From: Novosphingobium meiothermophilum
Lineage (GTDB): Bacteria > Pseudomonadota > Alphaproteobacteria > Sphingomonadales > Sphingomonadaceae
Direction: 5' to 3'
Assembly: GCF_003171715.1 (NCBI RefSeq)
Contig: NZ_QGHL01000008.1
Location: 310,001-374,000, forward strand
DNA length: 64,000 nt
The translations under genes and the position numbers were made by a program. The notes under the pieces were generated by a model. That model made no database searches. It saw only the letters and a program-made list of their open reading frames with translations, and was not told the origin of the DNA. Positions 19,692 to 49,000 of this stretch are shown piece by piece (within the stretch, counting starts at the first letter, position 1; each line of letters begins with the position of its first letter).

Positions 19692-20378
19692 TCAGGCTTC
19701 GTCAGTTTCGTCGAGCAGCCAGTCGGGATCGCGCGCGGAAATATCGCGGCGGAAGGTCCACAGATCGCGGGCCTCGATGGCATCGTCGAGCGAACCGGCA
19801 ATCACATTGCCATCCGCATCGCGCGTGACCGAAGCGATATCGGCAAGGAAGCGCACGGTGATGCGTGCCGTCCTGCCTTCGATCGAAGCGGCCACGATGC
19901 GGGCTTCCTCGATGCGGATGACGCGGGCATCGATGGTTTCGCCAGCCGCCACGCGGGCATCGATGGCCGCGGCAAAGCCTTCGTAAACGTCATCATCGCA
20001 AAGCTGGCGCAATTCGTCCTTGTCGCCGCGCCAGAAGGCTTCAAGGATCATCGTGTAGGCCGCTTTCGATCCGGCAAGGAACTGTGCCAGATCGAACCGG
20101 CGATCAGCCGCGATGATCGCGCGCACCCCTGCTTCGGCGCTGTTGTCAAAGGTCTGGACTTCGGGCTGTCCTGCCTCGCGCGGGCGCGGCGCAACCTGGC
20201 CGCCTTCGGCCGGGCGCTGGGCGATCTGTCCGGGACGGTTCTGCGCCGAAGGATCAGGCTGTTCGATCCGGCGGCGCATCGGCTCCTCGTCGCGTTCAGG
20301 GCGGCGGCCCAGAACCGAATAGAGGCGCAGGCCAAGGAAGGCCGCAATCATCGCCAGAATCACAATTTGAACAATCAC
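19692..20378 (-). CDS. Tim44-like domain protein
   Basis: A 228-residue inner-membrane protein. A single N-terminal helix (IVQIVILAMIAAFLGLRLYSVLG) is followed by a Pro/Arg-rich linker and a C-terminal Tim44/TimA-type domain (about 85-228, ending ARDLWTFRRDISARDPDWLL). GTG 20378 was chosen because the membrane anchor starts there and GGGA lies upstream. In alphaproteobacteria these proteins assist membrane-protein or translocon function and are commonly divergent from secB, as here. Confidence 0.88.
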   Translation of the reverse strand: MIVQIVILAMIAAFLGLRLYSVLGRRPERDEEPMRRRIEQPDPSAQNRPGQIAQRPAEGGQVAPRPREAGQPEVQTFDNSAEAGVRAIIAADRRFDLAQFLAGSKAAYTMILEAFWRGDKDELRQLCDDDVYEGFAAAIDARVAAGETIDARVIRIEEARIVAASIEGRTARITVRFLADIASVTRDADGNVIAGSLDDAIEARDLWTFRRDISARDPDWLLDETDEA

Positions 20379-20623
20379 GCGCTGGGTTCCCGAAACTGAC
20401 CGTGCCGCCCCGCAAGGGCACACGGCGCAAGAGTAACGTGCCTCAAATAGGTACGGATTACAAATGAACAACGTGTGCATGGCCCTTTGGGCGGATCACC
20501 TGCACGATAAAACGGCCGGACTGTTGCCTTTGCGCTGCAACAATGAGGCGCAGGCAAAGCGGATTGCCCGCCGGGTGCCATAGTGCTAGTCGCGCGCACC
20601 AGCATTCAAACCTCACCGAAAGC

Positions 20624-21151
20624 ATGTCTCCCATGGCCGATGAAGGCAATATCATCTCGAATCTCGATCTTGGTGGCCCCGCGCCCAACGGCGAGGACAC
20701 CTCGCCCGCCATCGGTCTCATCTCGCAGTATGTGAAGGATCTCTCGGTCGAGAATCCGAATGCGCCTGAGAGCTACCAGTGGGCCGAAGCGCCGGAGATG
20801 GCGGTGGACTTCAATATCTCAGCGCGCTCGATCCAGCCGGAGATCCACGAGATCGAACTGAAGATCAACGTCACCTCCAAGACCGCGCAGGGCACGGCCT
20901 TCATCGTGGAACTGGCCTATTGCGGCCTCATCGGGATGCGCAACGTGCCTGATGAACAGGCCCACCCCTTCCTCTTCGCCGAAGGACCGCGCATCCTGTT
21001 CCCCTTCGCGCGCCGCGTGATCGCCGATGCGGTGCGCGATCTTGGCTATCCGCCGCTCATGCTTGAGCCGATCGATTTCAACGGCCTCTATCTCCAGCAA
21101 CTGGCGCAGGCTCAGGCCACCGCAGAGGCTACCCCTGCCGGGCAGGCCTGA
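20624..21151 (+). CDS. secB: Protein-export chaperone SecB
   Basis: A tetrameric cytoplasmic chaperone of about 175 residues that holds preproteins unfolded for SecA. Characteristic segments are YVKDLSVENPNAP, INVTSKTAQGTAFIVELAYCG and LFPFARRVIADAVRDLGYPPLMLEPIDF. The N-terminal extension before GLISQYVKDLS is longer than in E. coli, as is usual in alphaproteobacteria. ATG 20624 and ATG 20633 are both possible starts. It is divergent from the tim44-like gene and is followed by murJ and trpS. Confidence 0.95.
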   Translation: MSPMADEGNIISNLDLGGPAPNGEDTSPAIGLISQYVKDLSVENPNAPESYQWAEAPEMAVDFNISARSIQPEIHEIELKINVTSKTAQGTAFIVELAYCGLIGMRNVPDEQAHPFLFAEGPRILFPFARRVIADAVRDLGYPPLMLEPIDFNGLYLQQLAQAQATAEATPAGQA

Positions 21152-21174
21152 TCCGGCGCTCTGATCCGGTAGCC

Positions 21175-21234
21175 AGAAGGATGCGGCGATGAACGCCTTG
21201 TCATGAACCTTGTGCCATGAACCTTCTGCCGTGA
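21175..21234 (+). promoter_or_regulatory. Tandem overlapping mini-ORF leader of murJ
   Basis: A Shine-Dalgarno sequence AGAAGG (21175-21180) precedes ATG 21189 by 8 bases. From there, 14-bp tandem copies place starts at 21189, 21203, 21217 (ATG) and 21231 (GTG, murJ). Each of the first three opens a five-codon frame (MNALS, MNLVP, MNLLP) whose TGA overlaps the next start (ATGA, ATGA, GTGA). The real murJ start has no good ribosome-binding site of its own. This looks like a translation relay that delivers ribosomes to murJ; the function is inferred. Confidence 0.6.
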
Positions 21235-22802
21235 ATCTTCTGAGGGCCACCGGCTCGATTGGCGGGCTTACCCTGCTCAGCCGCATTCTGGGGCTGGTGC
21301 GCGACAGTCTCTTCGCGCGCTATGTCGGGGCGGCATTCGCCTCCGATGCCTTTCTTGTCGCCTTCCGGCTGCCCAACATGTTCCGCGCGCTGTTCGCGGA
21401 AGGGGCCTTTTCGTCGGCGTTCATCCCGATGTTCAACCAGAAGGTCGCCAATCCCGAAGGCAAGGGGCTGCGCGACGGGCTGGACTTTGCCGAAGCCGCG
21501 CTGGCAGTCCTGCTGCCCGTCCTGCTGCTGATGACCCTGCTGCTGGAAATCTTCGCATGGCCGGTCACGCTGGTGCTGTCGGGCCGGTTCAACGGTGTCA
21601 GCGAGCAGCAGTTCGCCTATGCGGTGGAACTGTCGCGCTGGACGATCCCCTATCTCATGCTCATCAGTCTGGTCTCGCTGCTGGGCGGAATCCTCAATTC
21701 GCTGCAAAAGTTCTGGGTCAATGCGGCCGCGCCCATCCTGCTCAACCTCACGCTGATCGTTGCGCTGCTGGGCTTTCATGCCGATGACCCGCTGATTACC
21801 GCGCGCAATCAGGCGATCGCGGTATCGGTTTCGGGCGCGCTGCAACTGGCGTGGCTGGCGTGGGCCTGCCATCGCAACGGGGTGAACCTGCGCCTGCGCC
21901 GCCCCCGGCTCTCGCCCGAAGTGAAGCGGCTGATGAAGTTGATCCTGCCAGCCGCCGCAGGGGCTGGCGCGGTGCAGATCAACCTCGTCATTTCCACCGC
22001 GCTGGCGGCTTCGCTGCTCGATCATGGATCGGTCACGTATATCTACATGGCCGACCGCCTGAACCAGTTGCCGCTGGGGCTGATCGGCATTGGTCTCGGC
22101 ACGGTGCTGCTGCCCACGATTTCGCGCCAGCTTGGCGGCGGCGAGGATGCCGCTGCGATGGACACGCAGAACCGGGGCATGGAGCTTGCCCTGCTGCTTA
22201 CCCTTCCGGCCACGATCGCGCTCGTTCTGTGCGGCGAACCGATTGCTGCGGCCCTGTTCGGCTATGGCAAGTTCGATGCGCTTGACACGCACTATACCGC
22301 GCAGGCGCTTGCCGCCTTTTCGATCGGCCTGCCCAGCTACATTCTGGTAAAGGTGCTGACCCCCGGTTTCTATGCCCGTCAGGACACGAAGACCCCGCTG
22401 CGCTATGCCTCGATTGCCGTGGCCGTGAACCTTGCTGGCAATCTCGCGCTGATCGTGCCGCTAAGGCACATGGGACCGCCACTCGCCACGGCGCTGGCTT
22501 CCACGGTCAATGTCTGGCTGCTCTACCGGACGCTGGCAAAGCGCGGGCATTTCGTGGCCGATGCCCGGCTCAAGCGGCGGGTCTGGCGGCTGGCGCTGGC
22601 GGCTGCGGCGATGGGCGGCGTGCTCTGGGCCGGGCAGGGGCTGGTCATGCCGTGGGTCCAGGGAACATGGCTGGTCCGTATTGCGGCCATGGCCGGTCTG
22701 GTCAGTGGCGGAGTGCTGGTCTATGGCCTCGCCGCCATGATGACCGGCGCGTTTCGGCCCGGCGATCTCAAACTTCTCCTGCGGCGTCGCCGCTCCAACT
22801 GA
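21231..22802 (+). CDS. murJ: Lipid II flippase MurJ
   Basis: A 523-residue, 14-helix MOP-superfamily protein that flips lipid II across the inner membrane for peptidoglycan synthesis. It begins VNLLRATGSIGGLTLLSRIL, the standard MurJ N terminus, so GTG 21231 is the start. Other family segments are FRLPNMFRALFAEGAFSSAF and YMADRLNQLPLGLIGIGLGT. The GTG lacks its own Shine-Dalgarno sequence and is preceded by a 14-bp tandem array of overlapping mini-ORFs. trpS follows by 11 bases. Probable transcript: secB-murJ-trpS. Confidence 0.94.
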   Translation: MNLLRATGSIGGLTLLSRILGLVRDSLFARYVGAAFASDAFLVAFRLPNMFRALFAEGAFSSAFIPMFNQKVANPEGKGLRDGLDFAEAALAVLLPVLLLMTLLLEIFAWPVTLVLSGRFNGVSEQQFAYAVELSRWTIPYLMLISLVSLLGGILNSLQKFWVNAAAPILLNLTLIVALLGFHADDPLITARNQAIAVSVSGALQLAWLAWACHRNGVNLRLRRPRLSPEVKRLMKLILPAAAGAGAVQINLVISTALAASLLDHGSVTYIYMADRLNQLPLGLIGIGLGTVLLPTISRQLGGGEDAAAMDTQNRGMELALLLTLPATIALVLCGEPIAAALFGYGKFDALDTHYTAQALAAFSIGLPSYILVKVLTPGFYARQDTKTPLRYASIAVAVNLAGNLALIVPLRHMGPPLATALASTVNVWLLYRTLAKRGHFVADARLKRRVWRLALAAAAMGGVLWAGQGLVMPWVQGTWLVRIAAMAGLVSGGVLVYGLAAMMTGAFRPGDLKLLLRRRRSN

Positions 22803-22813
22803 AGGCATGTTGA

Positions 22814-23833
22814 ATGCGTATCGTTTCCGGCATCCAGCCCACCGGCAATCTCCACCTCGGCAATTACCTGGGGGCGATCCGCAACTGGGTGCGGATGCAG
22901 GATGAATGGACCGCCAAAGGGGCGCAGTGCCTCTATTTTCTGGCCGACCTTCACGCCATTTCAATGCCGCATTCCCCGGCCGAACTTGCCGCCAACACGC
23001 GGGAAATGGTGGCGGCGCTAGTTTCCTGCGGCATCGATCCCGACAAGTCGATCCTGTTCAATCAGGCACAGGTTCCCGCCCATGCCGAACTGCAATGGCT
23101 GCTGAACGGCACGGCCCGCATGGGCTGGCTCAACCGCATGACACAGTGGAAGGACAAGGCCGGCAAGAACCGCGAGGGCGCATCGGTGGCGCTTTTCACC
23201 TACCCCGTGCTTCAGGCCGCCGACGTGCTGCTTTATCAGGCCACTCACGTTCCCGTAGGCGAGGACCAGAAGCAGCATCTGGAGCTTGCGCGCGATATCG
23301 CGCAGAAGTTCAACAACGATTTCTGTGCTGAAGACGCACCGCTGTTCACGCTGCCCGATCCCATCATTCCGCCCGAAGCGGCCCGCATCATGTCCCTGCG
23401 CGATGGCACGGCCAAGATGAGCAAGTCCGATCCTTCCGACATGAGCCGCATCAACCTGACGGATGATGCCGATGCGATCATGCAGAAGGTGAAGAAGGCC
23501 AAGACCGATCCCGAACCGCTGCCCGGCACGATCGAGGGGCTGGCCGGACGGCCTGAGGCCAACAATCTCGTCGGCATCTATGCGGCAATGGCCGGGATTT
23601 CCGCGGCCGATGTGCTGGCGCAGTTCGAAGGCAAGGGTTTCGGCCAGTTCAAGCCCGCGCTGGGCGAACTGCTGGTGGAAACGCTCTCGCCCATGGCAGC
23701 GCGCTACCGCGAACTGCGCGGCGATGGCGAAGCGCTTGATGCCATCCTTGCCAAGGGTGCCTTGAAGGCCCGCGATCTGGCCGCGCCCATGCTGGCACGC
23801 ACATATGCGGCGCTGGGTCTGGTAAGGGGCTGA
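22814..23833 (+). CDS. trpS: Tryptophanyl-tRNA synthetase
   Basis: A 339-residue class I aminoacyl-tRNA synthetase that charges tRNA-Trp. The HIGH-type motif is PTGNLHLGN near residue 10 and the KMSKS loop is at 201-205. The tryptophan-pocket region ([20 protein letters not shown]) is well conserved. The length fits bacterial TrpS. It lies 11 bases after murJ, so it is most likely co-transcribed. A GC-rich hairpin at 23861-23886 follows. Confidence 0.97.
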
Positions 23834-46017: not shown

Positions 46018-49000
46018 ATGGCGAATATGAGGTCGAAACTGTTGCGGAGCACCACGCTGCCCATCGCGGTCGTGCTGGCTGCGCCGGCAATGGCGCAAAC
46101 GGTCACGATCGGTGGTGACGATGTGCTCGTGGATGATGGGGTTGGAGGCTACACCGCAAACAACGGCGGCACGCTGAATACGAACGGCGGTTCGATCAAC
46201 ACCAACGGTGGCGGTGTCTCCACCAACGGCGGTGCAGTGAACACGGGTGGCGGGTCGCTGACCGTCGGCGGAACCACCAACCTGAACGGCACAACCAACC
46301 TGAACGGCACAACCAACACCAACGGCATTACCAACACCGGAAACATCACCACCACCACGCTGACTGGCAACGTTACCGGCAATCTTACGGGTAATGTCAC
46401 CGGCAACGTGACCGGCAATCTCACGGGCAATGTCACCGGCGATGTGACCGGCAACCTGACAGGCAATGTCACGGGTGACGTGACGGGGAACCTGACGGGT
46501 GATGTGACGGGCAACGTGACCGGGGACGTGACCGGCAATCTCACGGGCAATGTCACCGGCGATGTGACCGGCAACCTGACGGGCAATGTCACGGGCGACG
46601 TGACGGGGAACCTGACGGGTGATGTGACGGGCAACGTGACCGGGGACGTGACCGGCAACCTGACGGGCAATGTCACCGGCGATGTGACCGGCAACCTGAC
46701 GGGCAATGTCACGGGCGACGTGACGGGGAACCTGACGGGTGATGTGACGGGTAACCTGACGGGCAACGTGACCGGCGGCAGCGTGACGGCCAGCACGCTT
46801 GACGTTTCCGGCGCGACCACGACCGCAGGCATCACCAACACCGGCAACATCCAGACGGGATCGGTCTCAGGCACGGGCGGCACGCTTACGCTTGATTCCG
46901 ACAATGCCCCTGGCGGCAGCTATGTGGCGATCACGGATACCGACATCACGCTGCATGGCGGCACGGCATCGACCACTGTCCTCATCAACGACAGCGGCGT
47001 GACGATCACCGACACGAACAACGGCACGACCTTTGTGCTGGATGACAGCGGCAACGGCACCTTCACCGGCACGGTGACTGCGGCCGGCATCGTGTCGAGC
47101 GGCGATCTCGACATGGGTGGCAATGACATCAACAATGTCGGCACGATCAACGCAGCCACCGGCAACATCGCCACGGTGAACTCGACCACAGTGAACTCCA
47201 CCACGGTGAACAACAGCGGCGCGGTGAACACCGCAACGCTGGCAACCACGGGCAATGCTTCGGTCGGCGGTGCGCTGGCGGTGACGGGTGCCACCACCAC
47301 CAACGGCATTACCAATACCGGTTCCATCACCACGGATTCGCTGACCTCGACCACGTCGAGCACCGGTGCAACCACGACCACCACGCTGACCTCGTCGGGT
47401 CTCGCCTCGCTCAATGGCGGCGTCGAAACCAATGGCGCGAACATCTCCACCAGCGGTGGCAATATCGCCACGGCAGCCGGTTCGATCTCGACCACAACGG
47501 GTTCGATCAGCACGCAGCAGGGCAACATCAGCTCGCAATCCGGTGATATCACCACCTTCTCCGGCAATGTCGGCACCACCACGGGCACCGTCTATGGCGC
47601 AAGCGGCAACTTCGGCACGGTGAACGCCGGATCCGGCAACATCACCACGGTCAACTCCACCACGGTGAACGCGCAGAACGTGAATGCTTCGGGCGCGATT
47701 TCCGGCAACACGATCGTGGCCGGGGCCGGTGGCCTTACCTCGAACGGGGCGACGACGCTGAACGGCACCGCAACGCTGAACGGCGCGACCACGGTCAACA
47801 ACACCCTGAACGTGACCGGTGCGACAACCACGGCGGGTATCAGCAACACCGGCAACATCAGCAACACGGGCAACCTGACCAATGGCGGCAACGCCTCCAT
47901 CGGCGGAAACCTGGCGGTGACGGGCGCCACGACCACCAACGGTATCACCAATACCGGCGCGATCAGCACCACGACGCTGACTTCGGGCACGTCGAACACG
48001 GGTGCCACCACCACCACCACGCTGACCGCCAATGGTGCTGCCACGCTGAACGGTGCAACCACGGTCAACAACACCCTCAACGTGACGGGTGCAACGACCA
48101 CGGCAGGCATCACCAACACCGGCAACATCAACAATTCGGGTGCAGTCAACACCGCAACGCTGGCAACCACGGGCAATGCATCGGTCGGCGGTGCGTTGGC
48201 GGTGACGGGAGCCACCACGACCAACGGCATCACCAATACCGGCAACCTCAGCAACTCCGGCACGTTCACCAATGGCGGCAATGCCTCCATCGGTGGCTCG
48301 CTGGCGGTGACGGGTGCGACGACCACCAACGGTATCACCAATACCGGCGCGCTGACCACCGGCACGCTTTCGACATCGGGCAACGCTTCGGTAGGCGGAA
48401 GCTTCACCGTTGCGGGTGATATCTCGACCAGCTCCGGCACGATCACGGGCGCCACGCTCGTCTCGACCGGCGCGACCAGCGTCGGCACCAACCTCACTGT
48501 TGGCGGAACGGCTTCGGTTGCGGGCAATGCCTCGGTTGGCGGCAACTTCACCGTCACGGGCAACTATGTCAGCACGGCGGGTAACATCACCACCGGTTCG
48601 GGCCAGATTGCCGCAGGCGCGGTGACGATCAATGCCGGCAATGGCGGCAAGATCGCGGGGCTTTCCAACGCCACGCTTTCGGCCACCTCGACCGAGGCTG
48701 TCACCGGGCAGCAGCTCTTTGCCACCAACAGTGCGCTGACCACGCTTCAGGGCCGCGTCAGCACGCTGGAAACCACCTTCGGCCAGCTTGTGGTAAACAA
48801 CCGCAAGGCCTTCCAGGGTGTGGCCATGGGCTTCGCTTCGACGGCAGCCCCGCTGAACCTTGCCAACGGCGAATCGGGTCTTGCGGGCGGCGTCGGCACG
48901 TTCGAGGGCGAATGGGCTGCCGCAATCCGCGCACAGGCCGTCACTTCCAGCGGGTTCGGCATCGGCGCGAATGTCGGCTTCTCGAAGGATGCCTTCGGTG

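Follow-up and report, generated by a model that had tools for sequence, protein, structure and literature searches.

The window analysed here, a 64,000-nucleotide stretch of the Novosphingobium meiothermophilum genome, carries secB (20633..21151, + strand; SecB, 172 aa; Pfam SecB, E 5e-49) upstream of murJ (21231..22802, + strand; lipid II flippase, 523 aa; Pfam MurJ, E 6e-110), which is followed by a tRNA synthetase gene, trpS by position and start and class I by Pfam. Four 14-bp units can be read directly in the secB-murJ gap: ATGAACGCCTTGTC at 21189, ATGAACCTTGTGCC at 21203, ATGAACCTTCTGCC at 21217 and GTGAATCTTCTGAG at 21231. The fourth holds the GTG start of murJ, 21231 being the position that aligns with the starts of orthologues; a TTG at 21210 shares the murJ frame, yet is not the conserved start. 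The other three open five-codon ORFs on the + strand—mini-ORF 1 (21189..21206, MNALS*), mini-ORF 2 (21203..21220, MNLVP*) and mini-ORF 3 (21217..21234, MNLLP*)—and each TGA shares 4 nt with the next start, the last one overlapping the murJ GTG. The sole clear Shine-Dalgarno (SD) sequence, AGAAGG (21175..21180, + strand), lies 8 nt 5' of mini-ORF 1, and the SD duplex energy is 0 before both unit 3 and murJ. An extra short ORF, ATG CGG CGA TGA (MRR*; 21181..21192, + strand), terminates at the unit 1 ATGA and leaves no space for an SD. Tandem Repeats Finder places the array at 21202-21242 (period 14, 2.9 copies, score 61), and with the base composition of the gap the chance probability of ATGs at all of offsets 14, 28 and 42 is about 2e-6. 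Direct reading of the sequence thus bears out the four starts with three overlapping mini-ORFs, the serial ATGA chain (three overlaps in series) and the lone good SD serving the first mini-ORF that had been described in the initial annotation. murJ is an essential cell-wall gene, and it seems to have gained three copies of its own start at intervals of 14 bases.

The close relatives of the window belong to Novosphingobium, and against six aligned ones (L004, L005, L006, L008, L009 and L010) the array stands out as a clean 42-bp (3 x 14) insertion in a leader that is otherwise alike. The six relatives lack the array, and their purine stretch or SD directly adjoins murJ; the counterpart of the ATG at 21181, located 8 nt before murJ, occurs in L006 to L010 (of the six aligned, in L006, L008, L009 and L010). 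Because of this insertion, and because codons 2-4 of unit 3 agree with codons 2-4 of murJ at 8 of 9 nt, the murJ start has most likely been copied three times, as the suggested duplication had it. Comparably clean steps are seen elsewhere: 28 bp in L066 relative to L142, 14 bp in L206 relative to L205 (another genus of the family), and 14 bp in L119 and L120 relative to their sisters, these last two probably sharing one event.

Two other kinds of element were considered for the gap and rejected. A phase-variable repeat acting as a frame switch does not fit, each unit stopping after five codons on the next start, so that gain or loss of whole units would leave the frame of murJ separate. An attenuator or riboswitch leader does not fit either, the sole terminator-like site in 20400-21400 lying inside murJ and no Rfam match being found in 20000-22900. 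The same absence of an Rfam match counts against an RNA hairpin switch in which the SD would be masked by base pairing of CAGAAGG to CCTTCTG in unit 3: this pairing is present in the minimum-energy fold, but the fold is no better than that of shuffled sequences (z 0.01; 94 of 200 shuffles reach an equal or better fold), which makes such a switch very improbable.

The most likely reading, somewhat more probable than not, is a serial termination-reinitiation relay running from AGAAGG to murJ, in which duplications of 3k+2 nt are kept. The first 12 nt of murJ together with two flanking bases would have been tandemly duplicated three times and, since 14 = 3 x 4 + 2 and murJ begins (A/G)TGA, every copy would start a five-codon ORF with its TGA on the next start. 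Ribosomes would load at AGAAGG, translate mini-ORF 1 and terminate at the overlap, and reinitiation would then run through mini-ORF 2 and mini-ORF 3 into murJ. Duplications of 3k+1 nt would bring ribosomes into murJ in the wrong frame; those of 3k+2 nt would survive because murJ stays reachable through coupling. Of this reading, the anatomy of the array, the insertion, and a frame bias and an excess of ATGs 14 nt before murJ in related genomes are observed, while translation of the mini-ORFs, reinitiation and any effect on the MurJ level are inferred; that the nearest relatives lack the array counts against it. The chain may lower MurJ output, as in the throttling proposed in the initial annotation, or may maintain or regulate it.

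The five-codon units have a geometry for which termination-reinitiation has been demonstrated experimentally (PMC6728339, PMC11260477). At ATGA gene overlaps, strict coupling was found in 13 of 14 tested gene pairs (PMC6728339); the 4-nt overlap is the same as here, but it joins two protein genes, whereas in the array it links three five-codon ORFs that are copies of the start of murJ itself. In Mycobacterium tuberculosis, ppe2 lacks an SD of its own and depends on an out-of-frame upstream ORF ending in AUGA (PMC11260477); that is one upstream ORF under a B12 riboswitch, with no repeated units mentioned in the available text of the paper, in contrast to the serial units before murJ. The window shows the stop/start overlap of a coupled upstream ORF, with an SD before the upstream ORF and none before murJ; across the other chain leaders this SD arrangement is found in part.

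A total of 216 murJ leaders (147 distinct and 69 more) were gathered, mostly from Sphingomonadaceae, skewed to closer relatives and drawn from the matches listed; near-identical pairs such as L049/L140 and L052/L118 were kept, and 15 genomes of the genus with a distant MurJ were included. secB adjoins murJ in 211 of the 216, and 207 leaders were left once four more rows, in which no start codon could be recognised, had been removed. An ATG exactly 14 nt before murJ (the -14 ATG) is present in 25 of these, corresponding to about 20 parsimony changes, as opposed to 1.75 expected in shuffled leaders; this count is approximate, the tree being rough (359 columns, quick search), and about 16 origins were judged by eye. 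ATGs lying 4-27 nt from murJ are heavily biased to the frame whose stop falls on the murJ start (offset 2 mod 3), with 58 in this frame and 5 and 3 in the others across the 207 leaders. In related bacteria, comparable 14-base mini-frames have apparently arisen on many occasions in front of murJ. Aligning related genomes had also been proposed as a way to see whether the repeat number varies while the ATGA chain is kept, and it does: one link of 14 nt precedes murJ in 20, two in 6 and three in 2 of the 216 leaders. Two or more links are present in 8 of the 207 (the window, L057, L066, L075, L119, L120, L144 and L168). That chains of this length occur before murJ in seven other genomes, and that the units of the array differ from one another, makes an assembly or sequencing error in one genome an extremely improbable explanation, even though this species is represented by a single assembly and its closest relatives lack the array.

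With regard to MurJ itself, only a distant MurJ (E above 1e-120) was found in roughly 75 of 192 genus genomes with a match, among the matches listed. Members of this distant set (for example G139, G098 and G019) have 42-46% identity where listed, and a few are fragments; secB still adjoins the distant MurJ in the 15 such genomes fetched.

The frame bias is shared neither by the neighbouring genes nor by ordinary ATGA genes. In controls from the same loci, upstream ATGs at offsets 2, 1 and 0 mod 3 numbered 39, 2 and 2 for murJ (n=121), 4, 2 and 11 for secB (n=103), and 1, 1 and 8 for trpS (n=109), and an ATG at -14 was found 14 times before murJ, once before secB and never before trpS. Since the majority of secB and trpS genes start with something other than ATGA, 195 ATGA genes (864 kb, eight genomes) were counted as a further control and gave 23, 16 and 13 at offsets 2, 1 and 0 mod 3, with 2 at -14. 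In the same eight-genome set an ATG at -14 precedes 7 of 290 ATG[CGT] genes, where about 2.9 would be expected, and 3 of 45 GTGA or TTGA genes, one of them the murJ of the window. There may thus be a mild general excess at -14, given that both of these classes show some, but murJ stands well above it. This control, made with no SD term, supersedes an earlier, smaller one of 323 genes that used an SD term in start choice and in which 103 ATGA genes gave 18, 7 and 7 by frame; the gene finder was home-made in both, so start calls are approximate.

The distribution of these ATGs also bears on two other interpretations of the chains. The mini-ORFs could be the idle, neutral relics of random short tandem duplications, with a frame filter keeping mainly those of 3k+2 nt before ATGA starts and murJ initiating alone or through ribosomes from secB. 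Of the 28 units at -14, 7 can be recognised as murJ-start copies (at least six of nine nt shared), compared with 1 of 148 among leaders lacking an upstream ATG; this is in keeping with the neutral reading. A pure frame filter, however, predicts neither a peak at 14 nor a concentration at murJ, and the remaining 2-mod-3 offsets underwent 2-7 changes each compared with the 20 at 14; we consider a purely neutral origin unlikely, although it deserves serious weight. Alternatively, the chain could be a selected regulator in which each reinitiation would lose some ribosomes, the number of 14-nt links setting MurJ output or a response to reinitiation capacity, with positive selection at murJ. Such a role would account for a frame bias and a -14 excess at murJ far above those of secB, trpS and ordinary ATGA genes, for link numbers that vary between lineages, and for -14 units that are not merely fresh copies, several of them sharing little with the murJ start (L011, 1 of 9 nt; L076, 2 of 9; L141, 3 of 9). 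It fits less well with the absence of a -14 ATG from 182 of the 207 leaders, including relatives of chain-bearing ones (L113, L115 and L131), and we regard it as possible, if somewhat doubtful.

SD signals across the leaders bear on the relay. In leaders with a -14 ATG the murJ start mostly lacks an SD of its own (median -1.9 kcal/mol, n=28, against -5.1, n=148; p 2e-6, relatedness ignored), and in a narrower window the loss is smaller (p 0.017). Relatedness-aware pairs for the -14 ATG gave 3.8 opposite and 0.1 same of 10 pairs (median p 0.125), and for the whole 2-mod-3 class of upstream ATGs the SD loss vanishes (4.8 against 3.1 of 22 pairs, p 0.73). The lack of an SD at murJ in these leaders would fit ribosomes arriving by reinitiation, but once relatedness is considered it is only suggestive. 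Before the first chain link the SD has a median of -3.0, against a background of -2.2 (p 0.03), and since many chain leaders have no clear one, ribosomes may in some species come from secB termination.

Chains of this type are not restricted to murJ. In the genus, two-link 14-nt chains gave 137 matches in 67 of 195 genomes, with overlapping matches and longer arrays counted repeatedly; murJ leaders contribute 9 matches from 7 genomes, and chains at other loci carry other sequences. On the same 99 genomes, spacing 14 gave 71 matches in 35 genomes, spacing 11 gave 68 in 46 (a set inflated by one conserved element found in 15 genomes), spacing 17 gave 36 in 32, and spacing 13 gave 22 in 17. Genome-wide, 14-nt chains are thus not commoner than 11-nt chains, and chains at 11, 14 and 17 are each commoner than at 13, as expected if a neutral frame filter operates. 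Spacing 13 on these genomes replaced a reversed-pattern control (10 matches), which was not considered a fair comparison, AGTA being probably less frequent than ATGA in these genomes. An ORF of 80 codons or more begins at the last start at 16 of 31 places for spacing 14 (30 loci), 10 of 21 for spacing 17 (20 loci chosen from 36 matches), 4 of 18 for spacing 11 (18 loci, selected among 68 matches) and 6 of 23 rows for spacing 13 (22 loci, L304 left out, one place making up four rows). The gap is smaller when the ORF may begin at any start within 45 nt, 24 of 31 at spacing 14 against 14 of 23 at 13. These counts, from small samples, suggest a preference for 14 and 17 over 13 in chains that stand right at the start of a gene.

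Among 144 genomes of the class, two-link chains occur in 53 at spacing 14 and 41 at 13, a contrast weaker than in the genus and again in keeping with neutral duplication. A variable-gap scan was dominated by the in-frame spacings 12 and 15, and among the 150 matches listed, from few genomes, equal spacings of 11, 13, 14, 16 and 17 occurred 5, 4, 3, 3 and 4 times, with no preference for 14. A family scan in which murJ-start chains had to be followed by a strict motif had no match in 397 genomes, 10 of them from the genus of the window; since even the array of the window, where murJ begins with GTG, escaped it, this result is not taken to show that such chains are absent.

The initial annotation had named no precedent for a serial chain of duplicated starts. 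In the literature searched, by title and beginning of abstract, neither such a chain nor a murJ leader of this kind was found; that statement nevertheless has to be qualified, since the components do have precedents, namely the coupled upstream ORF of ppe2 (PMC11260477) and the -4 overlap of mycobacterial interspersed repetitive units (MIRU), which are reported to insert at start codons with -4 coupling, the insertion being tolerated (PMC12548453). The array likewise has a -4 overlap with the downstream gene. According to the available text of that source MIRU are apparently mobile repeats present in many places (PMC12548453), whereas the units here are 14 bp long and copied from murJ itself. 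Assignment of the array to such mobile dispersed repeats was rejected, the insertion being made of units like the murJ start, unit 3 matching murJ codons 2-4 at 8 of 9 nt, and chains elsewhere having different sequences. The axe-txe operon contains a minigene, a very short translated frame that affects the downstream gene (PMC8708949), and unlike for the murJ array the available text of that paper mentions no chain of duplicated starts.

Coupled short upstream ORFs being already known, what appears to be new, as far as the literature searched shows, is the 14-nt serial chain of five-codon ORFs made from a gene's own start, together with the repeated occurrence of a -14 ATG before one gene. We tentatively raise the possibility of a 14-nt start-codon relay, in which copies of the gene's own start form five-codon ORFs that would pass ribosomes on, which would be favoured at 14 nt and would have evolved repeatedly before murJ in Sphingomonadaceae, and whose link number would tune lipid II flippase synthesis. 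Work on reinitiation usually concerns a single overlap joining two genes; one to three mini-ORFs of equal length before one gene, found in some species and absent in their relatives, amount to a natural dose series for reinitiation efficiency. The array also suggests how a start region could become duplicated while the gene remains functional, and it prompts one to ask why murJ and a spacing of 14 nt are so often involved.

Several further repeats were observed in the course of these scans. The genome of the window has a second two-link 14-nt ATGA chain (L310; G000:C10:205389-205420, minus strand), which precedes an ORF that runs for 396 codons or more and starts MKFADLGLSDELLQSV, with another ATGAAGTGCCCCTTTGC unit just upstream. 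In L264 (G020:C105:71210-71257) three 14-nt links precede a 195-codon ORF that begins MKILGLTGSIGMGKSTVAQM and that we take, from its appearance, to resemble coaE. L329 (G046:C1:1177616-1177689) consists of five perfect ATGACAGGGCGGTC copies with no long ORF opening at the last start, and its opposite strand also reads as an ATGA chain. The conserved 11-nt chain, ATGACACTTC[CT] ATGAC...... ending in GTGA or ATGA, is found in 15 of the 99 genomes, and in the one copy read (L316) the last start opens merely 49 codons. Finally, the window contains a large tandem-repeat block at 46361-46776, with periods of 12, 36, 84 and 120 and of GGCAAYGTSACC type, which by its look codes for a repeat protein.
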